Assembly: GCA_021773395.1 (NCBI GenBank)
Contig: JAJFKB010000024.1
Coordinates: forward strand, 186,001 to 250,000
Direction of reading: 5' to 3'
Source: Gammaproteobacteria bacterium
GTDB taxonomy: Bacteria; Pseudomonadota; Gammaproteobacteria; Pseudomonadales; IMCC2047
Length of the DNA: 64,000 nucleotides
Shown: piece by piece, positions 5,751 through 50,351 of the stretch
Layout of the letters: every line of letters starts with the position of its first letter
How positions within the stretch are numbered: the first letter of the stretch is position 1
The notes under the pieces: generated by a model
The model's database searches: none
The model's input: the letters and a program-made list of their open reading frames with translations, nothing else
Told to the model about the DNA's origin: nothing
Translations under genes and position numbers: made by a program

Positions 5751-6939
5751 TGCGTACTGCCCTCCGCTTGATGTTAGCCTGAATCACAAAGTGATCGATC
5801 AAAGGTGCAAACAGGTTACCAAACAGAATCGCCAGCATCATGCCCTCAGGGAAGGCCGGATTGACCACACGAATCAGTACCACCATAACTCCGATCAGCG
5901 CGCCGAATATCCATTTACCGGTATCCGTCATGGATGCCGAAACCGGGTCCGTCGCCATAAACAACATGCCGAAGGCAAAACCACCCAGTACCAGATGCCA
6001 ATCCCAGGTCATGGCAAACATCGGGTTGCTATCAGATCCAATCATATTAAAAATCAACGACATTGCGATCATACCGAGCATGACACCGGAAACAATACGC
6101 CAGGAGGCGATCTTAGTGTAAAGCAACACCGCTCCACCGATAAAGATTGCCAAGGTTGAAGTCTCGCCGATCGAACCAGGAATCATTCCGATAAAGGCAT
6201 CTATCCAGCTGTAATTGATCGCCTCGACACCACCCAGCGCAGCTAGACCTAAAGGTGTTGCGCCGCTGAAACCATCGACCGCGACCCACACCGCATCACC
6301 CGACATCTCTGCCGGATAGGCGAAAAACAGGAAGGCACGACCCGCCAAGGCTGGGTTAAGGAAGTTTTTACCCGTACCACCGAACACTTCTTTTGCAATC
6401 ACCACGCCGAAGGAAATACCCAGCGCCGCCTGCCACAATGGAATATCGGGAGGAACGATCAACGCAAACAATATCGAAGTAACGAAAAAGCCTTCATTCA
6501 CTTCATGGCCACGAATCATGGCAAATAGCACTTCCCAGAAGCCACCGACGAGGAAAACCACCAGGTAGATCGGTACTAAATACGCAGCGCCATGGATAGT
6601 ATTATCCAAAACACTGTTAGCGTCATAGCCTGCGAACAACTCAATCAAGCCACCGCGCCATCCTTCAACGGCGGCAATACCCATGCTGGCCATCGCTTCA
6701 TTAGCCAGATGTCCCAGATTCCACATCCCAAAAAACATGGCTGGGAATGCGCAGAGCCAAACGGTTATCATGATGCGCTTAAGGTCTATGCCATCTCTAA
6801 CATGCGAGGCATTTTTGGTGACCGAAGGCGGTGTATATAAAAAGGTGTCCGTCGCTTCGTATAACGCGAACCATTTTTCGTGTTTGCCGCCTTTGGTTAC
6901 ATGCGGCTCTATTTTGTCGAGTATTTCTCTTAAGCCCAT
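5743..6939 (-). CDS. nqrB: NqrB, membrane subunit with covalent FMN
   Basis: Largest membrane subunit (398 aa, about ten helices). It carries a covalent FMN and riboflavin and forms part of the Na(+) path and quinone site. A soluble N-terminal stretch (residues 1-50) precedes the helices. The ApbE target motif DGFSGAT is at residues 222-228, with T228 the expected flavin ligand. [20 protein letters not shown] and the [15 protein letters not shown] loop are family signatures. It starts 3 bp after the nqrA stop, so the two are co-translated. Confidence 0.97.
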
Positions 6940-6942
6940 GTC

Positions 6943-8292
6943 TTAACCCTCTTTCTCAATACGATCAAGATTGCTGCGCAAGATCGGTCCGAATTCATAT
7001 TTACCCGGACACACATAGGTGCAGAGCGCCAAATCTTCTTCATCCAGCTCTAGGCAGCCTAGGGATTGTGCCGTTTCAACATCGCCGACAACCAGAGACC
7101 TTAATAGGTGCGTAGGCAAAATATCCAGAGGCACTACTTGCTCGTATGCGCCGATAGGAACGATCGCCCTGGGGCTACCGTTGGTCGTGGTTGTCATTGC
7201 AAATTTCTTATTGCGAAACAACTTAGACAGGTAAATATTCATCACGGAGTGCTTGTTAGCGCCGGGACTCATATAGCCCAGCAGATCGCGGGTTATGTTT
7301 TCCTGAACCACTGACACCTGATTATGATATCTGCCCAGATAAGCCAGTGGCCCTCGGGCCGTGCGACCAGAATGAACTGAACCGGAAATGGTACGATTTT
7401 CCTGACCTGATTCATCGCATTGACCTGCAGTCAATTCCTCTAGACTGGCGCCGACACGGGTACGAATCAGACGCGGCTGAGTCACACGCGGACCTGCCAG
7501 TGCAACCACACGATCCATATAAAGTTGCCCGGTAGTAAATAGCTTACCCACCGCAATCACGTCCTGATAGCCTATGTGCCACACTATCCTTTTATCCGAA
7601 GCCGGATCTAAATAATGTATGTGCGTACCGACCAATCCTGCTGGATGCGGACCCGCGAACTCTTCAACCTGTATAGAAGGTGCACTGCCATTGGGTATAT
7701 CTGCGCCAGGCTCTTTACAGAGATAGACGCGTCCAGGCGTTAATTTACTAAGCACATCCAGGCCAGTTGCAAAATCATTCGAGTGTTCGGCAATAATCAC
7801 TTGCGGATTGGCCGCCAATGCGTTGCTGTCCATCGCAGCGACAAAGATTGCAACAGGTTGAGTGCCCGGCTGCGGAACTTTGCTAAAAGGTCGCGTGCGC
7901 AACGCAGTCCAGAGGCCGGAATTAACCAGATTTTGCTCAACCTGTGCAGCGCTTAACCCGGAGATTTGAGAGGCTTCGTAGCGGTCAAAACTCTCCGCTT
8001 CGTCACCTTCAACATCGATCACCACCGACTGAAGCACACGTTTATCTCCACGATTAATGGCCGATATTGTGCCCGCCGCTGGTGCCGTGTATCTGACACC
8101 TTCCGTTTTTTTGTCTGTAAATAACAGCTGCCCCTTACGAACCCGGTCGCCCTCCCTGACCTCCATCGTAGGCTTCATGCCCACATAGTCGCTACCTATT
8201 ATAGCGACGGTTCTCGCTGTCGCGCCGTCATAAATCTTCTGTTCCGGCTCGCCAGCGATAGGCAGATCCAAACCTTTTTTGATCTTGATCAT
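6943..8292 (-). CDS. nqrA: NqrA, cytoplasmic subunit of Na(+)-NQR
   Basis: Soluble cytoplasmic subunit of the pump (449 aa from this start), associated with quinone binding and with NqrB. The N-terminus [14 protein letters not shown] is the family signature, which is why I use the ATG at 8292 and not a TTG four codons upstream with no ribosome site. Other family stretches are [20 protein letters not shown], a biotinyl-lipoyl-like fold, and [16 protein letters not shown] near the end. It is the first gene of an eight-gene minus-strand operon (nqrABCDEF, apbE, nqrM). The promoter should lie in the ~190 bp between here and the GAPDH gene, but I saw no clear -35/-10 pair. Confidence 0.96.
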
Positions 8293-41000: not shown

Positions 41001-41660
41001 ATGGAACAACTGGATCAAATCATCGCACTGCTCGCAGTGACCATGGGCGTTGGCTGGGCCAGCGGAATAAATCTGTACGCAACACTCCTGACACTGGGGA
41101 TTTTGTCCCACACCGGACATATGACGCTCCCCGCGGACTTGCAGATAGTTGCAGATCCGCTGGTAATGGCAGCAGCCGGGCTCATGTATATGGTTGAGTT
41201 TACCGCAGATAAAATCCCCGGAGTGGATACCGGGTGGGATAGTATTCATACACTCATACGGATTCCAGCTGGAGCCGCGCTGGCGGCAGGCGCCGTAGGA
41301 GAAACCAGCGCAGCAATCACCCTGGCAGCCGCTATTGTCGGTGGTGGACTTGCCGCCACCACACACCTTACCAAAGCCGGTAGTCGCATTGTTGCAAATA
41401 GCTCACCGGAGCCGTTTAGCAATTGGTTCCTGTCGATCGGCGAAGATGTCGCGGTGATTTTTGGCCTGTGGACTGCCATCCAACATCCTTGGTTGTTTTT
41501 GGTTCTGCTGGTTATATTTCTATGTCTGGTGATTTGGCTGCTACCTAAAATATGGGCAGGCGTTAAGGCCGTATTCAGAGCAATTAAACGCTTTTTTAAT
41601 TCGGACAGTAAGCACCCAACAGAAAATCCTGTTGGACTATTGGACGATAAAAACCGTTAG
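41001..41660 (+). CDS. DUF4126-family membrane protein
   Basis: 219 aa, mostly hydrophobic, with about five membrane helices and a glycine/alanine-rich core (GVGWASGINLYATLLTLGIL; VEFTADKIPGVDTGWDSIHT; IPAGAALAAGAVGE). These are hallmarks of DUF4126, a family of unknown role. A charged tail of about 30 residues ends the protein. GACCGAG precedes the ATG. Divergent from the lipoprotein gene. Confidence 0.85.
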   Translation: MEQLDQIIALLAVTMGVGWASGINLYATLLTLGILSHTGHMTLPADLQIVADPLVMAAAGLMYMVEFTADKIPGVDTGWDSIHTLIRIPAGAALAAGAVGETSAAITLAAAIVGGGLAATTHLTKAGSRIVANSSPEPFSNWFLSIGEDVAVIFGLWTAIQHPWLFLVLLVIFLCLVIWLLPKIWAGVKAVFRAIKRFFNSDSKHPTENPVGLLDDKNR

Positions 41661-41760
41661 ATATTGTATCAAGCGTTACAGCAGATCGTTTTGATTGGGT
41701 GCAAATCAGATTCCCTTAGAAAAAAGTTAATCTCTTTCCAAATGGCGGGTTTCACTTGTT

Positions 41761-44652
41761 ATGCCTATAATTGGTGAGATATGGATTTTGTTATTGATAG
41801 GTGTGTCTCCTTTGTTTTATCTAAATCGATCTAGAATACTTCTGTTATCCAGTGCTTTAACTCTTGGGTCTGTGCTTTATGGGCACGCACAAGCGGCAGA
41901 AGAGCATAGCGCCAGCCACTACTACGAAGACGCGGTCAAACGATTCAGCGAAAATGAGTTTAATGAAGCTGTCATTCAACTTAAAAATGCGCTGCAGATT
42001 AATCCACGACTCCTTCCAGCTCTGGCGCTGCTAGGTCAGGCCTACATCAGAACAGGAAATGCCGCAGCGGCCGAGTCTGCTCTGTCCGATGCCATTTCAG
42101 CCGGAGCAGATCCATCACTGTTAGCCGTACCTTTAGCGAAAGCCTATCTCAGCCAGATGAAATATGATCTGTTACTGGCGCAGGCAATACCAAAAAATCT
42201 ACCCGACTCCGTACTGGTAGAGCTTTTATCCATTCGGGCAAACAGCGCTCTGGCGATTAACAACGAGAAAGCGTTCAACGAAGTGTTATTAAAGCTGGAA
42301 GGAATCAATCCGGACGGACTGGAATATCTCAACCTCACATCCGCCCAGCAAATGAAAATGGGTAATTACGAGCAGGCTCAGGCCATCGTTGATCGCATGA
42401 TACTGCTCTACCCCAACAAAGAGACAGCCTGGCTATCCAGTGCCTCTTACAAGCATTTACGGGGAGATTTGGACGGAGCCATCGCGGACTATGAGCGGGT
42501 ACTCTCCATTAATGAAAAGCACTTCAGCGCACGCCTGGCGCACGCGGGCTTATTGGTTGATCTGAATCGCAATGAAGAAGCTACTAAGGATCTGCAGCGC
42601 CTGGTGAAAGCGGACTCCGGCGACCCCCGAGTACACTACCTCAGATCGATTACCTTTGCTCGAGCCGGTGACGAACACGCCAGCCGTAGCGAGTTAAATT
42701 TGGTGATCAACGCCATTGATGGTCTGGATAAAGAACTGGTGACACGTAACGACCAACTGTTACTGGTGGCGGGAATCGCGCACTACACATTGGGCAGTCC
42801 GGAGCTCGCGCGTAACTATTTTGAGAACTATGAAGAGATCGGTGGCGCGGATATCGGGCCGCTCAAACTACTCGCCACCGTATATCTAGACGATAAGGCC
42901 TACTTTCCCGCCGTGAGCTTGTTGGAAAATATCAGTAATCGCGTCCCTTTAACGATGGAATTGCTGTCGCTGCTCACCCAGGCTTATCATGGCGCAGGCC
43001 TGCATGAGAAAGCGATCGCGCTGATGGAAATGGCGACTTCCTATGAGGATACGCCAGAGCCACTTTTCACCCAACGCGCCATCACTCGCCTGGAAGCCGG
43101 ATATATTGAGCGGGGTATTGCCGAACTACAGGAGATCTTTAATAAAAGGCAAAGTAACAAGCTCGCCGGAATTGCCCTCGCCACCACCTACCTGAAACGC
43201 AATAACTATCTGGCCGCCGACCAAATTGCTGAGCAACTGCTGGCAGCCAACCCCAGTGACCCCAGCTATGTCAATTTGATTAGCATCACCAAATTGGCTA
43301 TCGGTGATACCACCAGCGCCCGAAAGGCGGTACTCAGCTATCTCGAGTCTGATCCTGAGTATGTAGTATCTGCTCGCATCAGTCTGGCAAAAATTGATAT
43401 CGAGGAAGGCCAAGCTGAAGATGCAAGAGTGATATTGCAGGACATCTTGGATAGCATTGAGCAAAGCAGTCGAAAACACCACCCTATGGCCATGCTACAG
43501 ATGGCAAAAAGTTATCAAATCGAGGGTAACTTGAAAAACGCTCTGTCCTGGGCGCGCAAAGCCGCTGCAAAAGCAAATGATAGTTTAATTATGCAGAAAT
43601 ACCTGTTTGATCTATTACTTCAAAACGAGGCGTTGGACGAAGCCAGTAATCTAGCCTATGAACTGGAATCAAAATCCCCTAATGACCTCTCTGTGATGGA
43701 GTTACAAATCCCGCTGCTCAAGGCCAAGGACGAAACCGGCAAGCTCAGCGCACATCTGCAGAACATGGCGGGTGCGGCTGGCTCCCACACCGACTGGCTT
43801 TCCAGAATTGCCCGTCATCAGGTTGATATAAATGCCTTGAGTGATGCGGCTTACACCCTTTTCAAAGCCATTCAGGTTAATCCAGACAGCATCGCTATAC
43901 AGGCTCAATTAGCAGAAGTGGAACTCAAGCTTAACCGCATCGACAGTGCCACAGACAGAATTGCCAACCTTACAATAAAACACCCGGACCAAGCTATTGG
44001 TCACAGTTTGACTGGCGATCAAAAAATGCAGGCTGGCAAACCCGCTCAGGCAATACAATCCTATGCCACAGCACAGAAAATTCAACCTAATACGCGCCAT
44101 CTTATACGACTGTATCTGGCGCAACGCAGTGCCGGCAAAAGTAACAGCGCAGAACAAACTCTGCTAGGTTGGCTGAAGCTACACCCGGAGGATATTATTG
44201 CGCGCCATGCAGTTGCAGAGCATTATCTGGCCAACCAGCAGTGGCAGCGATCGATCGGCTATTACCAGGATCTACTGGAAACCAGACCCAACGATGCTCT
44301 GCTGCACAACCACGTTGCCTACGCCTATGGTAAGCTCAATCAAATTGATCAAGCTCTGGCGCACGCGAACAGCGCCATAGCGCTACAATCGGACAATGCC
44401 GCCATTAATGACACACTGGGCTGGCTGCTAGTGCAGCAGGGGAAATTTGACCAAGCTCTTCAATATTTAAGAGAGGCCCTAACTCGCAACTCCCATAATG
44501 CGGAGATCCGCTATCATCTGGCCGCCGCACTAATAGGACTGAACAGAAATGATGAAGCACGTACTGAGCTACTGCTCTCACTTGAGTCTAATCAGACCTT
44601 CGATGGTCGTGATCAGGCTCAGGCCATGCTGGATCAGCTACAGAATCGCTAA
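41761..44652 (+). CDS. PrsT-type TPR protein of the exosortase/PEP-CTERM system (copy 1)
   Basis: 963-aa exported protein built almost entirely of tetratricopeptide repeats. Its opening ASHYYEDAVKRFSENEFNEA followed by VIQLKNALQINP is the signature of the PEP-CTERM-system TPR protein (PrsT family), usually found with exosortase and exopolysaccharide genes. About 20 TPR units follow, the last ones AYAYGKLNQIDQALAHANSA and TLGWLLVQQGKFDQALQYL. The N-terminus as given has two hydrophobic stretches. A TTG at 41812 with AGGTG upstream would leave one clean signal peptide (cleaved after HAQA) and may be the real start. No lipobox. The cargo gene follows 188 bp downstream on the same strand. Confidence 0.82.
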   Translation: MPIIGEIWILLLIGVSPLFYLNRSRILLLSSALTLGSVLYGHAQAAEEHSASHYYEDAVKRFSENEFNEAVIQLKNALQINPRLLPALALLGQAYIRTGNAAAAESALSDAISAGADPSLLAVPLAKAYLSQMKYDLLLAQAIPKNLPDSVLVELLSIRANSALAINNEKAFNEVLLKLEGINPDGLEYLNLTSAQQMKMGNYEQAQAIVDRMILLYPNKETAWLSSASYKHLRGDLDGAIADYERVLSINEKHFSARLAHAGLLVDLNRNEEATKDLQRLVKADSGDPRVHYLRSITFARAGDEHASRSELNLVINAIDGLDKELVTRNDQLLLVAGIAHYTLGSPELARNYFENYEEIGGADIGPLKLLATVYLDDKAYFPAVSLLENISNRVPLTMELLSLLTQAYHGAGLHEKAIALMEMATSYEDTPEPLFTQRAITRLEAGYIERGIAELQEIFNKRQSNKLAGIALATTYLKRNNYLAADQIAEQLLAANPSDPSYVNLISITKLAIGDTTSARKAVLSYLESDPEYVVSARISLAKIDIEEGQAEDARVILQDILDSIEQSSRKHHPMAMLQMAKSYQIEGNLKNALSWARKAAAKANDSLIMQKYLFDLLLQNEALDEASNLAYELESKSPNDLSVMELQIPLLKAKDETGKLSAHLQNMAGAAGSHTDWLSRIARHQVDINALSDAAYTLFKAIQVNPDSIAIQAQLAEVELKLNRIDSATDRIANLTIKHPDQAIGHSLTGDQKMQAGKPAQAIQSYATAQKIQPNTRHLIRLYLAQRSAGKSNSAEQTLLGWLKLHPEDIIARHAVAEHYLANQQWQRSIGYYQDLLETRPNDALLHNHVAYAYGKLNQIDQALAHANSAIALQSDNAAINDTLGWLLVQQGKFDQALQYLREALTRNSHNAEIRYHLAAALIGLNRNDEARTELLLSLESNQTFDGRDQAQAMLDQLQNR

Positions 44653-44746
44653 CCAGTGTCGGAAATATTTACAACTTAAGTTAAAAATACAAAGAATTTC
44701 TACTAGATAATTCCTATCCTATTGATATTTTTATCAAATAATTATC

Positions 44747-44762
44747 TGGCAAAGAAATTGCA
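44747..44762 (+). promoter_or_regulatory. Sigma-54 (-24/-12) promoter of the exosortase cargo gene
   Basis: TGGCA-N6-TTGCA with the obligatory GG and GC dinucleotides exactly 10 bp apart (44748-44749 and 44760-44761). It lies about 80 bp before the cargo start codon in an otherwise A/T-rich region. Sigma-54 control fits the PrsK/PrsR-type regulators known from PEP-CTERM systems. A short inverted repeat GTGGT ... ACCAC lies just downstream in the leader (44790-44806). Confidence 0.75.
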
Positions 44763-44840
44763 TTTACTAAAATATATTGATGGTTTGCGTGGTGTTTTAG
44801 AACCACCAAAAGAATTAAACAATAGATCATGGTGATATTC

Positions 44841-45686
44841 ATGAAAAAATCAGTAAATACCCTGTTAGCCGTTTCATTGGCATTGATTTGGGCTGGCAGT
44901 GCAAACGCGGCAGTCAACTGGACGTTTGGTAGCGGAGGAAACTTCGATACAGCTGGAGACAACAGCTACACAAAAACCCTCACAGACTCAATAATCGGAG
45001 ATATAACACTTACGATTACAGCATGGGCTTCTCAAGGTGGCAATAGTAGTAGTATGTTTGGACGAGAAACACTTACAAGATACGGCGGCAATAAGTTAGG
45101 CACGGTTACAAACGGTAGAAGTAGCGAACCAGTGCATGCGGTAGGTGACTTTTATTCTGAAGAGTTTTTACTGCTAGAGTTCACTAAACCGGTTGCCATT
45201 ACCCAAATAGGAAATGGCTATGCCCGAGAATGTAATGCGGGAGTAACAACATGCTATCAATCGGGGAATCGACATTCCAATAATGTGGACGCGAGTATTC
45301 TGGCGCATTTAGGAGCAGGGGGCCCATCACCGATGACGTCCTATAGTTCTAGTGGAACAGCTGGATTAACTAATAATGGTTGGCAACATTTTGATGCTTC
45401 TTTTAATTCTGGCGGAACAACTGGGAATTTTAATCCAACGCCAACAAGTGGCTCCGACCCTCAACAGATTTTTTCAAATACTTGGCTAATTGGTAACGCA
45501 AACGAGTTCATTTCCAGTAGTGATAGCCTAGAGGATTTCTTCAAGCTTAATCTTGTTAAAACAACTACCCGACGGGGTTGCGCACCTGGAGATCAAGGAT
45601 GCGGTGATAATGGCGTACCAACCCCCGCGACCGCAGCACTGCTAGGTCTGGGGCTGCTATTGCTGCGTCGGCGCGTTTCACAATAA
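44841..45686 (+). CDS. Exosortase-dependent surface protein with PEP-CTERM-like tail
   Basis: 281 aa from the ATG with GGTGA 5 nt upstream (an ATG at 44829 is less likely). Signal peptide MKKSVNTLLAVSLALIWAGS ending in ANA. The mature domain is rich in Gly, Ser, Asn and Thr, low in Lys, with four cysteines (ECNAGVTTC; GCAPGDQGC). The tail has the tripartite sorting layout: VPTPAT motif, hydrophobic helix LLGLGLLLL, then RRR. VPTP replaces the usual VPEP, a variant seen in some gammaproteobacterial exosortase substrates (XDP-like proteins). The protein is expected to be cut by an exosortase and released or anchored at the surface. The role of the N-terminal domain is unknown. Confidence 0.85.
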   Translation: MKKSVNTLLAVSLALIWAGSANAAVNWTFGSGGNFDTAGDNSYTKTLTDSIIGDITLTITAWASQGGNSSSMFGRETLTRYGGNKLGTVTNGRSSEPVHAVGDFYSEEFLLLEFTKPVAITQIGNGYARECNAGVTTCYQSGNRHSNNVDASILAHLGAGGPSPMTSYSSSGTAGLTNNGWQHFDASFNSGGTTGNFNPTPTSGSDPQQIFSNTWLIGNANEFISSSDSLEDFFKLNLVKTTTRRGCAPGDQGCGDNGVPTPATAALLGLGLLLLRRRVSQ

Positions 45687-45726
45687 TTACAACTTGTTTT
45701 TGCCTGACTATTCGGGCGCTCCTGTA

Positions 45727-45756
45727 AACCCCGGTCAATGTACCGGGGTTTTTTAT
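45727..45756 (+). terminator. Strong intrinsic terminator after the cargo gene
   Basis: Perfect 9-bp stem AACCCCGGT / ACCGGGGTT with loop CAATGT and a run of six T residues. It lies 41 bp past the cargo stop codon. Confidence 0.93.
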
Positions 45757-45799
45757 ATCCGTTGAAAAACTCGACGGGCTAGAACATCACCCCAACAAA

Positions 45800-46185
45800 G
45801 AAGTTTGACTAAAGTCGAACCTGCAGTCGTAGACCACTGTTCCAGATTTTACCAGACCGCAGGCCTGACGTTAGCCAACGTGCAAATCGATTCCTACTGT
45901 AGCTTAACGTGGCAAAGGTGTTTCAGCTAATCTGTCCAACTGAAATCGGGCTGGTCAAACCGGCTACCCTTTGCCCGTGCCTATCTTATACCTGCAAGTA
46001 TTCCTCCCAGCTTGCAGGTTTGGCTTTAGTCGGGGTATATCCTGAGCCGTTGCCGGAGCATCCGCTCAAAGCAGGCAAAACCATGTATTTATCTGGCTGA
46101 AGTCAGCCGCCACATTCCCCCGGCACTGGCACCTGCCTTGAAAAGAATCCTCGCGAAACTAGGCCCGACTTTAGCCGGGCACCAC
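45800..46185. repeat. Array of REP-like short palindromes between the two TPR genes
   Basis: Six imperfect palindromes sharing a core like GACTTTAGTC: 45807-45816 (GACTAAAGTC), 45862-45876, 45936-45951 (weak), 46022-46035 (GGCTTTAGTCGGGG), 46095-46108 (GGCTGAAGTCAGCC) and 46163-46180 (GCCCGACTTTAGCCGGGC). Spacing is 60-85 bp, in both orientations. This resembles REP/BIME clusters of Pseudomonas-like genomes. Spacing and repeats are too irregular for CRISPR. The open frame 45909-46100 inside it is not a gene. Confidence 0.65.
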
Positions 46186-46238
46186 TCTGATTGATTATGA
46201 AGGGCTTCATACCCCCTCTATACTACTTGCGCGGAATA

Positions 46239-49025
46239 CTACTCCAACTTCTGAAGCAGCTCTCTGGCGTTCGCGGCTTGCGGAAAATCCTTATAATCCC
46301 TAAGCAATCGGGTTAACTCCTTTTTGGCTGCCTCTTGCTGATTGTTTTTCTCTAAAGCAACCGCCAGATGGTAACGAATTTCCGGGTTAGTCGGCGCCTT
46401 GGATGCAGCCGTCTGTATGTGACTCAGCGCAGCCTTTTTATCTCCCTCATGTAGCATAATCCAACCCAGTGTATCGATAATTTCCGGGCGCCCTGGCTCT
46501 GCCTCGTTGGCGAGCCGCGCCACATCCAGGGCCCTGCTATCATTTTCAACCCAATAGAGCCAGGCCAGATTGTTCAGCACCACTGCATTTTCAGCAACCG
46601 AATTGTTAAGCCACTCATAATGCGTTATTGCTTCTTTGTTTTTATTGAGTTGCTGATAAAGGGTTGCCAGACGCAACCGGTTGACATTATCCTGTGGCAC
46701 CACGTCAATATACTGCTGTAATTTTTCAGCGGCCTTTTTCGGCTGCTCATCTTTTACATAGAGGCGCGCCAAGGTAGTTACCAGGTAAGATGTTTTAGCA
46801 AGGTCAAAAGCCTGCTCATAGGCCTCAACTGCCTTACCAGACTGCATCTGGGCGACAAGTAAATCACCGGTTAGCTGTTCATCTAAATGTGAAGTTGGAA
46901 AATCTTTAGCAATCGCACTGATTTGCTCTTCTGCAGTGATATAGCGCTTATCGCTAATATTAATTTTTACTCGAGCAGCTAAAGCCGGTAGATATGTTTC
47001 ATCCAGCGCCAATATCTGCTCAACGTTATCCATTGCATCAATCATCTGACCTTCCGATGCCTGTATCTGCACCATTTGCATGCGATGGATAATATCTTTC
47101 GGGCTGTTTTCGATAACTTCCTGCAAATGATACTTGGCCTGCTGCAGCTCCCCTTTCGCCAGATAAATCCGCGCCAGCAAAGACCTGGCCCCTAAATTAT
47201 CAGGATGATCCGTCTGGTAGGTCAAAGCCTCATTAAGTGCTTTCTCAATCTCCTGTTGCTGCAGGTATTGATTTGCAAGTAAATTAACTGGCGCAAAGGC
47301 TTGGGGATTATTTCTCTTTGCCTGCTCTGCCAGTTTCAAAAATTCCCGCTCATCTCCTTCACGCAATGCAAGCTGTGCCAAAGCCAATTGCGCCTGCATG
47401 TGCTTGCTATTCGCTTTTAACACACCCTGAAAATAAGATCTGGCTTGCTCTAACTGCCCCTCAGCTACACTAAGTTTGCCCAGCGACAGCAGGGCAGGAA
47501 GATACTCGGGCTCTACCTCAATCGCTCTCTGATAGGCCTGTCTGGCTTCATCATTGTTTAACTGTGCCTCGTGCGCCATTCCCTTCAAATTATAGTAAAT
47601 CCCGCTTTTCGGCTCTTTTTTAATTGCCTGGTTAATTGCCGTATAGGCTTTATCAAACATTCGCTCTTTGATATAGGAGAGAATCAACATTACCTGAGGC
47701 ATGTCCCCCTGGTGGGTATCCTGAGCCAGACTATCCTCCAGCTGTTTTATAGCCTCTCGTGTATTACCTGAAGCCAACTGCCCAAGTGCTATCTGTGTTC
47801 TGGCGCCTTCCAACTCCGGCGCAATTTTAACCGCTCGTGTCAGTGCCGCCGTGCCTTTATCAATTTCCCCCAACTGTAGATAAGCACGCCCCAACACATT
47901 GAGCAACTGAGCATCCTCATGTTCAGCCTGCTGGTCAATAGATTCAATTAAATCAACCGTACTTTGCGGATCGCCCAGCTTTAAATAGGTGGCACCGAGA
48001 ATACGGGCGGCAGCGGCATTACCAGCCTGTGTCCCCATAAATTTTTCCAGGTATAACTTGGATTGCTCCAGGTTTTCCTGCACATAGTGCGCCGTTCCCA
48101 GAATGAAAAAGCTCATCTCATGATTTGGAATGACACGCAGCACTTTCTCTGCCGATATCTGCGCAGCCTCATATTCCTTGGCATCCAACTGCAGCTTGCT
48201 CATCAAAAAATTGGCCTGGGGCAGCATGTCATTGAGTTTGAGGGCGTATTCCGTATCCTCTCTGGCAAGATCCAGTTTACCTAATCTTACATAGCCCTCA
48301 GCTCGCGCCATTCTCGCGGCAATATTTTTAGCATCTCGCTCCAAGATACCATCAAATACCTGCACTGCTTCTTCATATTTATCGATGGAACCCAGAATCT
48401 GCGCTTTGGTAAAAAGTGCCTCAGTGTAGTTTGGTTTTAGCTTAAGCGCCTCCTCCAAGCCCTTCAAGCCCTCATCGGTTTTTCCTTCAAACAAAGCAAT
48501 GCGCGCTCGTCCCAGTACCGCATAGGGTGTTCTGCTCAAAGCCAGCGCATCGGAAAATGATTGCTTCGCATCCCCCGGCTGATTTTTCACCATGTACGCG
48601 TGCCCGATTATGGCCAGGGCTTCACTCTTCTCCTCTGCAGTCGATAATTCGTCAACCTTTAATACTTCCAATACTTCGTCGGCCTTTCCTTTGCGCAACA
48701 ACGTAAGCGCCAGTGGCAATGCAACACGCCGTTTCTCTATACCCAAAGAAGCGCCTGCTCTCAGCTCTTTTTCAGCCGCATCATAGGCGCCACTTTTTAA
48801 ATAGGCCTGACCAAGCAACATGCGTGCTTCTGCGTTTTTATCATCTTCCTGTAACGCATTTTTTAGCTGAATGATGGCGGACTTATAGTCCTCCTTATCA
48901 AAATAACCTCGCGCGTCCTCAAGATACCCTGCGTTTGCCATGCCGCCAGCCAGGCAGGCGACAACCACACAGCTTCTCAGGTAACTAACAGGTTTCAGAT
49001 GAGACAAAATATTTGGGTAGCCCAT
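46239..49025 (-). CDS. PrsT-type TPR protein of the exosortase/PEP-CTERM system (copy 2)
   Basis: 928-aa exported TPR protein and distant paralogue of the gene at 41761. After a signal peptide (SCVVVACLAGGMANA) the opening GYLEDARGYFDKEDYKSA followed by IIQLKNALQEDDKNAEARM matches the PrsT signature. About 20 TPR units follow to the end, including LNNLAWLYWVENDSRALDVA and IIDTLGWIMLHEGDKKAALS. AAAGGA precedes the ATG. Convergent with the cargo gene. Family members are thought to organise secretion or assembly of exosortase substrates with exopolysaccharide; direct evidence is thin. A VVAC lipobox-like string is too close to the N-terminus of the h-region to rely on. Confidence 0.84.
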   Translation of the reverse strand: MGYPNILSHLKPVSYLRSCVVVACLAGGMANAGYLEDARGYFDKEDYKSAIIQLKNALQEDDKNAEARMLLGQAYLKSGAYDAAEKELRAGASLGIEKRRVALPLALTLLRKGKADEVLEVLKVDELSTAEEKSEALAIIGHAYMVKNQPGDAKQSFSDALALSRTPYAVLGRARIALFEGKTDEGLKGLEEALKLKPNYTEALFTKAQILGSIDKYEEAVQVFDGILERDAKNIAARMARAEGYVRLGKLDLAREDTEYALKLNDMLPQANFLMSKLQLDAKEYEAAQISAEKVLRVIPNHEMSFFILGTAHYVQENLEQSKLYLEKFMGTQAGNAAAARILGATYLKLGDPQSTVDLIESIDQQAEHEDAQLLNVLGRAYLQLGEIDKGTAALTRAVKIAPELEGARTQIALGQLASGNTREAIKQLEDSLAQDTHQGDMPQVMLILSYIKERMFDKAYTAINQAIKKEPKSGIYYNLKGMAHEAQLNNDEARQAYQRAIEVEPEYLPALLSLGKLSVAEGQLEQARSYFQGVLKANSKHMQAQLALAQLALREGDEREFLKLAEQAKRNNPQAFAPVNLLANQYLQQQEIEKALNEALTYQTDHPDNLGARSLLARIYLAKGELQQAKYHLQEVIENSPKDIIHRMQMVQIQASEGQMIDAMDNVEQILALDETYLPALAARVKINISDKRYITAEEQISAIAKDFPTSHLDEQLTGDLLVAQMQSGKAVEAYEQAFDLAKTSYLVTTLARLYVKDEQPKKAAEKLQQYIDVVPQDNVNRLRLATLYQQLNKNKEAITHYEWLNNSVAENAVVLNNLAWLYWVENDSRALDVARLANEAEPGRPEIIDTLGWIMLHEGDKKAALSHIQTAASKAPTNPEIRYHLAVALEKNNQQEAAKKELTRLLRDYKDFPQAANARELLQKLE

Positions 49026-49226
49026 TTTTTATTCCTTTTTAACGACCAACGCCATCCTGAAGTTTCACAAATAACCCATAATGAAGAAATTTGCTTTCCG
49101 GGACTCTAACCAGGTCTTACTTGGGAGGGATTCATTTTAACCCTGATAAGAGTAGGAACTCTACCGCAATTTTGTTAACTTGTGATGCTACTGTACTGGC
49201 AACTGTAATATTTTCCCGAGGACCTG

Positions 49227-50351
49227 ATGAGTTGGCAACAAGAATTCCCACAACAATCCGATCTGGTATACCTGAATCACGCCGCGGTCTCACCCTGGCC
49301 TGAACGTACAAAAATTGCGATCTCGAATTTCGCCCAGGAAAATGTCTCGCTAGGTGCGCAAAATTATCCTCAATGGATTTCAGTAGAGACGCGCCTGCGC
49401 GAACGCCTGAAAGAGCTGATCAATGCGCCTAAGGTTGATGACATAGCGCTTCTGAAGAACACCTCAGAGGCCTTATCGGTGATTGCCTATGGCATTAACT
49501 GGAAACCAGCAGACAATCTGGTTATCAGTAATCAGGAATTTCCATCAAACCGCATCGTCTGGGAATCACTGGCCAATAAGGGTGTCCAGGTGAGAGTTGC
49601 GGACATGGAAAGTCCCGATTCTCCAGAACAGGCGATTATCAACGCTTTTGATCAAAATACACGGTTGCTTTCCATCAGTTCTGTACAATACGCCTCCGGA
49701 TTAAAACTCGACTGCGAAAAACTGGGAGCAGCTTGCAAGGACAGGGGTATACTGTTTTGCATCGACGCCATTCAAAGTATTGGTGCACAGGTTTTTGATG
49801 TACAAAAGTATCAAGCGGATTTCGTCGTTGCTGACGGTCACAAATGGATGCTGGGTCCTGAAGGGTTAGCCCTGTTTTACAGCCATGCAGAGGCCAGAAA
49901 GCAGCTGACCATTCGCCAATTTGGTTGGCACATGGTAAAACACCGGGGCGACTACGACCGCCAGGACTGGGAGCCCACCGAAAGTGCCCTGCGTTTTGAG
50001 TGCGGCAGCCCGAATATGCTCGGCATCTATGCACTGGAAGCGAGTCTTTCGCTGATTCAAGAGATCGGCATGTCACCAATTGAGCAACTTTTGCACGAAA
50101 AGGTACAGTACCTGGAAAACGCCATTCGGGAAATACCCAATATTGAATTGCTCGGCAACGATTCGCCGGAAAGAAGAGCCGGCATTGTTACTTTTAAACT
50201 TGGATCCAAAGATACAAAAAAAATTCACGACAGCCTGATGGCAAAGAGAATTATTTGCGCACATCGCGGTGGGGGCATTCGGTTCTCGCCTCATTTTTAT
50301 ACGCCCATTGAAAAAATTGACCGGGCACTGGAACAACTAAGGCTTTTTTAA
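49227..50351 (+). CDS. Class V aminotransferase family protein
   Basis: 374-aa PLP enzyme of the SufS/isopenicillin-N-epimerase type. PLP Lys206 in DGHKWMLGPEGLALFY, Asp180 in FCIDAIQSIGA, and the small-domain FSPHFYTPIEKIDRAL at the end. The cysteine loop of true cysteine desulfurases is not visible, so activity may be an aminotransferase, lyase or epimerase. GAGGACCTG precedes the ATG. It is divergent from the second TPR gene and followed by a YiiX-type gene. Substrate unknown. Confidence 0.8.
   Translation: MSWQQEFPQQSDLVYLNHAAVSPWPERTKIAISNFAQENVSLGAQNYPQWISVETRLRERLKELINAPKVDDIALLKNTSEALSVIAYGINWKPADNLVISNQEFPSNRIVWESLANKGVQVRVADMESPDSPEQAIINAFDQNTRLLSISSVQYASGLKLDCEKLGAACKDRGILFCIDAIQSIGAQVFDVQKYQADFVVADGHKWMLGPEGLALFYSHAEARKQLTIRQFGWHMVKHRGDYDRQDWEPTESALRFECGSPNMLGIYALEASLSLIQEIGMSPIEQLLHEKVQYLENAIREIPNIELLGNDSPERRAGIVTFKLGSKDTKKIHDSLMAKRIICAHRGGGIRFSPHFYTPIEKIDRALEQLRLF

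Follow-up and report, generated by a model that had tools for sequence, protein, structure and literature searches.

The closest described systems are the PEP-CTERM/EpsH system (PMC1569441) and the prsT-pepA genes of Aquincola tertiaricarbonis RN12 (PMC9850573). In the former, PrsT is described as a lipoprotein encoded in tandem with PrsK and PrsR in 4 of 13 species, and the passages on its role go as far as the remark that an adaptor function is possible for TPR domains. A sigma-54 box lies ahead of PEP-CTERM genes of that system and is itself preceded, at a spacing of 32-92 nt (mean 62.8 nt), by a 17-nt box ending in TTTACA; the phylogenetic profile of this two-box promoter was matched to PrsT, PrsK and PrsR (PMC1569441). 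In Aquincola, flocs require prsT and also involve the neighbouring pepA; pepA is RpoN1-dependent with -24/-12 motifs, and transcription of prsT is seemingly unaffected by rpoN1 disruption (PMC9850573). Within the literature collection searched, no paper combined XDP1 with exosortase and, judging by title or abstract start among the matches listed, no cargo-paired PrsT.

The locus described here lies in the window, the whole 64,000-nt stretch of DNA that was analysed, and comprises two genes for large TPR proteins, TPRa and TPRb, on either side of an XDP1-like gene (Table 1). It is like the PEP-CTERM/EpsH system, as set out in the passages on PrsT (PMC1569441), in that both TPR proteins score above the PrsT model cut-off and the source genome has XrtA, PrsK, PrsR and the two-box promoter; it is unlike it in that TPRa lacks a lipobox and its gene forms a pair with that of a cargo. 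As in Aquincola (PMC9850573), a PrsT gene adjoins a PEP-CTERM gene. The window also shows a comparable division, with a sigma-54 site before the cargo gene and no TTTACA-type site before the PrsT gene. In Aquincola, however, pepA is upstream of prsT, whereas in the window the PrsT gene comes first and the cargo is XDP1-like. This cargo aligns with XDP1 (NF041927) over its full length and is encoded 3' of a PrsT of TPRa's clade, as are above-cut-off XDP1s in genomes G001, G002, G249 and others; unlike XDP1, it scores below the cut-off of the model and has P-T-P in place of P-E-P.

We consider it probable that TPRa and the XDP1-like gene constitute a two-gene XrtA/PEP-CTERM module, with a cargo, its own PrsT partner and a sigma-54 promoter serving the cargo only, which would depend on a distant XrtA, and that TPRb is older and independent of it. 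Such a module would be a variant within the known exosortase system, its notable part being the cargo-linked PrsT lineage.

Table 1. Features of the TPRa/XDP1-like/TPRb locus (positions in the window).
Feature	Position	Strand	Description
TPRa	41761..44652	+	963 aa; PrsT family, cargo-linked clade; TIGR02917 464.6 bits; no Cys in signal region
Box 1, likely PrsR enhancer site TGTCGGAAATATTTACA	44657..44673	+	top two-box score in window; motif from PMC1569441
Box 2, sigma-54 -24/-12 type promoter CTGGCAAAGAAATTGCA	44746..44762	+	72 nt past box 1, 66 nt before first ATG
XDP1-like gene	44829..45686	+	285 aa; signal peptide, beta-rich body, P-T-P sorting tail
Sorting-tail codons, tail VPTPATAALLGLGLLLLRRRVSQ	45615..45683	+	from sequence; aligned with XDP1 tails of relatives
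Terminator-like hairpin 3' of XDP1-like gene	45726..45751	+	10 pairs, T run; consensus match only
TPRb	46239..49025	-	928 aa; PrsT family; paralogue already resident, related to PrsTs encoded next to PrsR; TIGR02917 621.9 bits
Interval missing from the corresponding site of G003 and G001 (TPRa-XDP1 module and flanks)	41661..46238		collinear flanking genes in L133, L135

Two PrsT proteins and a distant XrtA system

The three open reading frames were found where the initial annotation had placed them, and the convergent arrangement that it gave is correct. The signatures that it named are also in the sequence, namely VIQLKNALQ and IIQLKNALQ near the N-termini of the two TPR proteins and, in the protein between them, a tail of VPTPAT, a hydrophobic helix and RRR. 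Its assignment of both TPR giants to the PrsT family is borne out by their TIGR02917 scores, which exceed the curated NCBIfam cut-off for the whole protein (312.2 bits). TPRa and TPRb share 25% identity across 949 aligned columns and are distant paralogues. Read by eye, TPRa has no Cys in its signal region and so lacks the lipoprotein signal of the PrsT described in PMC1569441. A loose lipobox pattern flags two relatives (L053 and L138), within the hydrophobic stretch. It also fits TPRb, where VVAC occurs early in the signal region and is followed by an AxA-type site; the TPRb orthologues L133 and L135 are unflagged. The same pattern missed the LNAC of a third PrsT, encoded on contig C2.

Seven ORFs between 37594 and 51481, a set outside which 49227-50351 lies, were compared with NCBIfam and Pfam, and the four other than those of Table 1 gave no exosortase, kinase or polysaccharide match above cut-off. 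The statement that no such gene is nearby therefore holds for the seven ORFs compared; the sole exosortase match and PrsK are on another contig. This match, in a source genome of 3.8 Mb (26 contigs, 98.9% complete), is an XrtA on contig C2 (353.4 bits, cut-off 208). It belongs to an exopolysaccharide (EPS) cluster that also encodes XrtA-type glycosyltransferases, amidotransferase, ligase, chain-length, tyrosine-kinase and export proteins. PrsK (798.8 bits) and PrsR (735 bits) are encoded on the same contig, approximately 28 kb from XrtA, and the third PrsT (603.9 bits), with its lipobox-like LNAC, is near them. The genome thus has XrtA, PrsK and PrsR alongside its PrsT genes and, in XrtA, an exosortase alongside the XDP1-like gene.

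The PEP-CTERM model PF07589 matches 22 places in the genome at E≤5, 15 of them above its cut-off. Seventeen tails were read by eye (L024-L041 without L033; L042 and L043 hold only 18-19 aa, and two places have no locus), and in seven of these the middle position of P-x-P is not E. The initial annotation had linked the locus to an exosortase system and had named one exosortase elsewhere and several variant tails as support, which is what the genome contains. At one site (C6:407912-410993, L048), three PEP-CTERM genes within 3.1 kb encode near-identical tails (LFGLGLxGLGFxRRKKA) with the motifs P-E-P, P-I-P and P-T-P.

A PrsT lineage linked to XDP1

In a tree of 33 PrsT-like proteins, TPRa groups with the XDP1-adjacent PrsTs of G002, G001 and G249 and one of G134 (five rows, 100/99), and TPRb groups with PrsTs of G003, G001, G002, G037, G073 and G049 (seven rows, 100/99). 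By eye, prsR- and prsK-like genes lie directly 5' of the PrsT gene of G037, and a prsR-like gene has that place in G073 and G049. The earlier suggestion of a separate step or cargo set for each of the two PrsTs is consistent with this tree and with the gene contexts, in which PrsK/PrsR-, XrtA- and cargo-linked groups can apparently be distinguished.

Sampling was then widened to the class. A TPRa profile built from five proteins, four of them encoded beside XDP1, gave matches at E≤1e-120 in 38 genomes of the 369 searched; 20 regions were taken, representing the best 22 of 53 non-own places, with at most two candidates scored per genome in this and one further search. In a FastTree phylogeny of 57 PrsTs, TPRa belongs to a clade of 23 members (support 0.983) with a weakly supported inner group of 19 (0.306). 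The count of 57 leaves out two contig-end loci, L149 (PrsTs of G025) and L144 (one PrsT of G085), as well as a second PrsT of G043 (L145), that of G080 (L074) and further search matches that were not retrieved; PrsTs that were counted near contig ends are those of L148 and L151 and the second of L188.

Of the 23 members of TPRa's clade, 17 have an XDP1 gene no more than 1 kb away, compared with 1 of the 34 other PrsTs, which is the window's TPRb; four of the 17 (the window, L053, L054 and L066) had first come from an XDP1 search, and without them the count is 13 of 19. Among PrsTs from the TPRa-profile search, XDP1 is the 3' neighbour of 13 of the 14 in the 19-member group, or 13 of 18 over the firmer clade. 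Twelve of these 13 neighbours are above the NF041927 cut-off, and all share the strand of their PrsT except at L198; over the full set of 17, every XDP1 exceeds the cut-off except those of L197 and the window. The XDP1 genes of L189 and L191 were found with a model from alignment A5 and confirmed by NCBIfam. Six clade members are without XDP1: those of L138, L202, L195 and L196, the second PrsT of L188 and the first of L192. The latter two adjoin other PEP-CTERM genes, and no adjacent PEP-CTERM gene was found at L202, L195 or L196. At L138, the place of XDP1 downstream of the PrsT is taken by a gene (6380-7147) for a DUF1194 protein that ends in a PEP-CTERM tail. Scanning named genomes yielded four loci, two being the G001 and G002 contigs again; at L209 (beta proteobacterium AAP65, outside the tree) an XDP1 of 144.3 bits is beside the PrsT, and L210 (Gayadomonas joobiniege) is without XDP1, its TPR protein matching TPRc best.

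XDP1 itself is rare, occurring in 10 of 294 genomes of the order at E≤1e-10, in seven of them above cut-off and in one (G221) in two pieces. It adjoins a TPRa-clade PrsT in four of the ten. No PrsT-like gene was found in the 17-20 kb around XDP1 in the other six, and XDP1 is therefore not always in need of such a partner. An exosortase is present in nine of the ten genomes, the exception being G001 (95% complete), and in five of these nine (G209, G288, G221, G249 and G156) it lies 4.3 to 25.5 kb from XDP1. Going by these distributions, XDP1 accompanies exosortase and the TPRa lineage mostly accompanies XDP1, which can exist without that lineage.

With XDP1 lacking an adjacent PrsT in these six genomes and PEP-CTERM genes flanking 10 or more of the 38 PrsTs that do not belong to the group of 19, TPRa might instead be a general helper of the XrtA system like any PrsT, its place beside XDP1 reflecting inherited gene order and not function. 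We regard this as unlikely, in that a gene as rare as XDP1 is nonetheless found beside 17 of 23 clade members and the pair stays together while its flanking genes differ among the window, G002 and G001.

A different arrangement of PrsT genes was observed at L203 (6383-12069), L204 (6659-12357), L205 (2421-8770) and L206 (2331-8677), where two close PrsTs lie 3' of genes that by eye are prsK-/prsR-like. The first PrsT of each pair is without a lipobox-like Cys and the second has one, and a 185-aa ORF separates them in L205 and L206. In BLAST comparisons, the non-lipoprotein member scores best against TPRb (399-450 bits).

Gene order and the extent of the proposed module

In a genome of the same genus as the source (G003) and in one of the same family (G001), the neighbours of the window's genes are collinear and include TPRb, and the TPRa-XDP1 pair is missing. 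The collinear genes encode a DinG-like helicase, a lipoprotein-like protein, a DUF4126 protein, TPRb, an aminotransferase, a C92 peptidase, and TatD, PilZ and HolB-like proteins (DUF4126 and C92 were named by Pfam and the other neighbours by eye). TPRb is 52% (G003) and 43% (G001) identical to the window copy, and the gap between the DUF4126 gene and TPRb, which in the window holds TPRa and the XDP1-like gene, is 159 bases in G003 and 60 bases in G001. Elsewhere in members of the family, the pair was found in G001 (L054) and G002 (L053), and TPRb of G002 (L136) is on a different contig from the pair; neither XDP1 nor TPRa was found in G003, a genome that is only 83% complete. The neighbours of the pair, named by eye, are the DUF4126 gene and TPRb in the window, ABC ATPase and permease genes in G002 and a dihydrolipoamide dehydrogenase-like gene in G001.

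We read this pattern as a probable insertion of the pair beside a TPRb that was already resident. Loss from the site in both relatives is possible, and insertion is preferred because loss needs more events. From gene order we infer that the pair has moved. The 549 intergenic bases to the right of the XDP1-like gene occur at a single place in the genome, the insertion region has only two imperfect inverted pairs, and its GC content (0.46-0.50) is like that of the window (0.47); a mobile element or repeat was sought at the insertion and none was found. Plasmid carriage of TPRa was rejected as well, a search of 72,556 plasmid records having returned nothing at E≤1e-30.

The initial annotation had taken the three genes for a single sorting or assembly module for one surface protein; on this reading, the two PrsTs would share a cargo. 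The genes are adjacent in the window, and two-PrsT arrays with PEP-CTERM genes exist elsewhere (L188 of G412 and L192 of G519); in both arrays, however, the two PrsTs fall in TPRa's 23-member clade and not in TPRb's. Moreover, G003 and G001 have TPRb in this neighbourhood but not the pair, in G002 TPRb and the pair are on separate contigs, and the one PrsT of 34 outside TPRa's clade that has XDP1 within 1 kb is the window's TPRb itself. A single three-gene cassette is therefore improbable. Because TPRb is in place without the pair in two relatives and the link to XDP1 is specific to TPRa's clade (17/23 vs 1/34), we take the unit to be two genes, TPRa and the XDP1-like gene, and not three. The array of L188 (637-8891) consists of a PrsT gene, an XDP1 gene, a further PEP-CTERM gene and a second PrsT gene, all on one strand.

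A predicted promoter at the TPRa/XDP1-like junction

The region upstream of the XDP1-like gene has the organization of a PrsR/sigma-54 regulon promoter: a TTTACA-type box, a spacer of 72 and GG-N10-GC. The exact two-box form precedes this gene and 9 of 18 other PEP-CTERM-like candidates of the genome, and a matrix was trained on those nine genes with the XDP1-like site left out. Scored with this matrix, the XDP1-like site ranks first in the 64-kb window with 28.9 bits, the next site having 20.8 bits and the best of eight random windows 21.7 bits; the nine training genes score 33.2-43.8 bits, values that are inflated because these genes are the training set. Box 1 begins 4 bases past the TPRa stop codon, placing the control site at the junction. 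No TTTACA box was found in the 300 bases upstream of TPRa or of TPRb. A second ATG in the XDP1-like ORF, at 44841, may be its true start.

Other PrsT-cargo junctions share this layout. Among the 15 same-strand PrsT-cargo junctions first listed, the promoter score is above 60 of 60 shuffles at 12 and above 21.7 bits at nine; two of the 12, L187 and L190, are low (12.9 and 17.0 bits). Junction L193 scores 17.3 bits, matched by 1 of 60 shuffles, and L199 and L200 have no two-box promoter. Junction L189, which was first taken as a control and later found to have XDP1, scores 29.7 bits (reached by 0 of 60 shuffles), and L191 scores 9.8 bits (reached by 1 of 60). One control region, 3' of TPRb of G002 (L136), is also above 60 of 60 shuffles, with 15.2 bits and a box 2 without GG; the remaining controls 3' of TPRb or other PrsTs (the window, C2, L202, L195, L133 and L135) are reached by 5 to 54 of 60 shuffles. 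The pair is predicted to carry its own internal promoter of the PrsR/sigma-54 type, serving the cargo only.

The XDP1-like cargo and its sorting tail

Residues 15-282 of the XDP1-like protein align with positions 2-241 of NF041927, and the protein is named XDP1-like because its score of 99.9 bits falls below the cut-off of 125. Its C-terminus consists of the motif VPTPAT, a predicted hydrophobic helix (263-280) and the basic extreme end RRR. Pfam gave no match on the whole protein, and PF07589 did not match its tail, which is absent from the 22 places found in the genome at E≤5. The alignment with NF041927, below cut-off, and the layout of the tail support the PEP-CTERM-like cargo that had been proposed here. 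A MYXO-CTERM or another non-exosortase sorting signal is highly improbable, as TIGR03901 (18.6 bits, cut-off 20) and TIGR03382 (14.9 bits, cut-off 15.85) match weakly and under cut-off, on which MYXO-CTERM identity was rejected, whereas the XDP1 model fits better and over the full length, XrtA is in the genome and the PrsR/sigma-54 boxes are common to PEP-CTERM genes.

Two structure models of the protein had mean pLDDT values of 61.2 and 66.7, the latter showing a beta-rich body and a C-terminal helix. With this second model, Foldseek gave no match at E≤0.001: the best row was a DUF4465 protein (E 0.028, not significant), and four of the next nine rows were CBM32 carbohydrate-binding domains (E 0.049-0.16, query TM 0.20-0.24). 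As these matches are not significant, no firm conclusion on the fold is drawn. A sequence comparison with solved structures returned a single row (E 0.61). Directly ahead of the sorting motif, a C-x-P-G-x-x-x-C-like stretch was seen by eye in the window (45579-45602) and in proteins of the same genome at L024 and L034; in these three cargos it is perhaps a small disulfide loop. Terminator-like hairpins such as that of Table 1 number 14 in 41600-49300, compared with a mean of 8.0 in shuffles.

Proposed function of the module

The computed family assignments, single XrtA, PrsK and PrsR, promoter boxes, empty site in two relatives and clade-specific linkage are the basis of the following model. 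TPRa would be made separately from its cargo, cross the inner membrane by means of its signal peptide and, lacking a lipobox, remain periplasmic as a TPR solenoid. Sigma-54 polymerase would use the two-box junction promoter to transcribe the XDP1-like gene once PrsK and PrsR, encoded on contig C2, fire. The C-terminal helix of the exported protein would anchor it in the inner membrane; XrtA would cut near the P-T-P motif and pass the protein to an acceptor tied to exopolysaccharide, presumably giving it a surface location. TPRa may bind the protein and guide it to XrtA or to the outer membrane. TPRb would be an older, independent paralogue beside which the module came to lie. Counting against this model are the XDP1s without a PrsT (6/10), loci L202, L138 and L210, the weak support for the 19-member group, the make-up of the TPRa profile (mostly XDP1-adjacent proteins), the low scores of junctions L187 and L190 and the score of the XDP1-like protein below the cut-off.

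More broadly, and more tentatively, the PrsT family may comprise three or more lineages that differ in function: a PrsK/PrsR-linked one, a lipoprotein lineage often near XrtA, and a cargo-dedicated one, acting as a periplasmic carrier that is private to XDP1 and moving with this cargo and a PrsR-controlled promoter. If this is true, the uptake of approximately 4.5 kb could provide a new surface protein to a bacterium in which XrtA and PrsK/PrsR are already present. An exosortase cargo could then move as a unit with its own control site while relying on a distant exosortase, and a search of only the neighbourhoods of exosortase genes would overlook such modules. On the role of PrsT, the passages in PMC1569441 go no further than the adaptor remark, and those in PMC9850573 give a floc phenotype. 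A PrsT lineage with one cargo would make PrsT function directly testable, by following the binding or sorting of XDP1 with and without its own PrsT.
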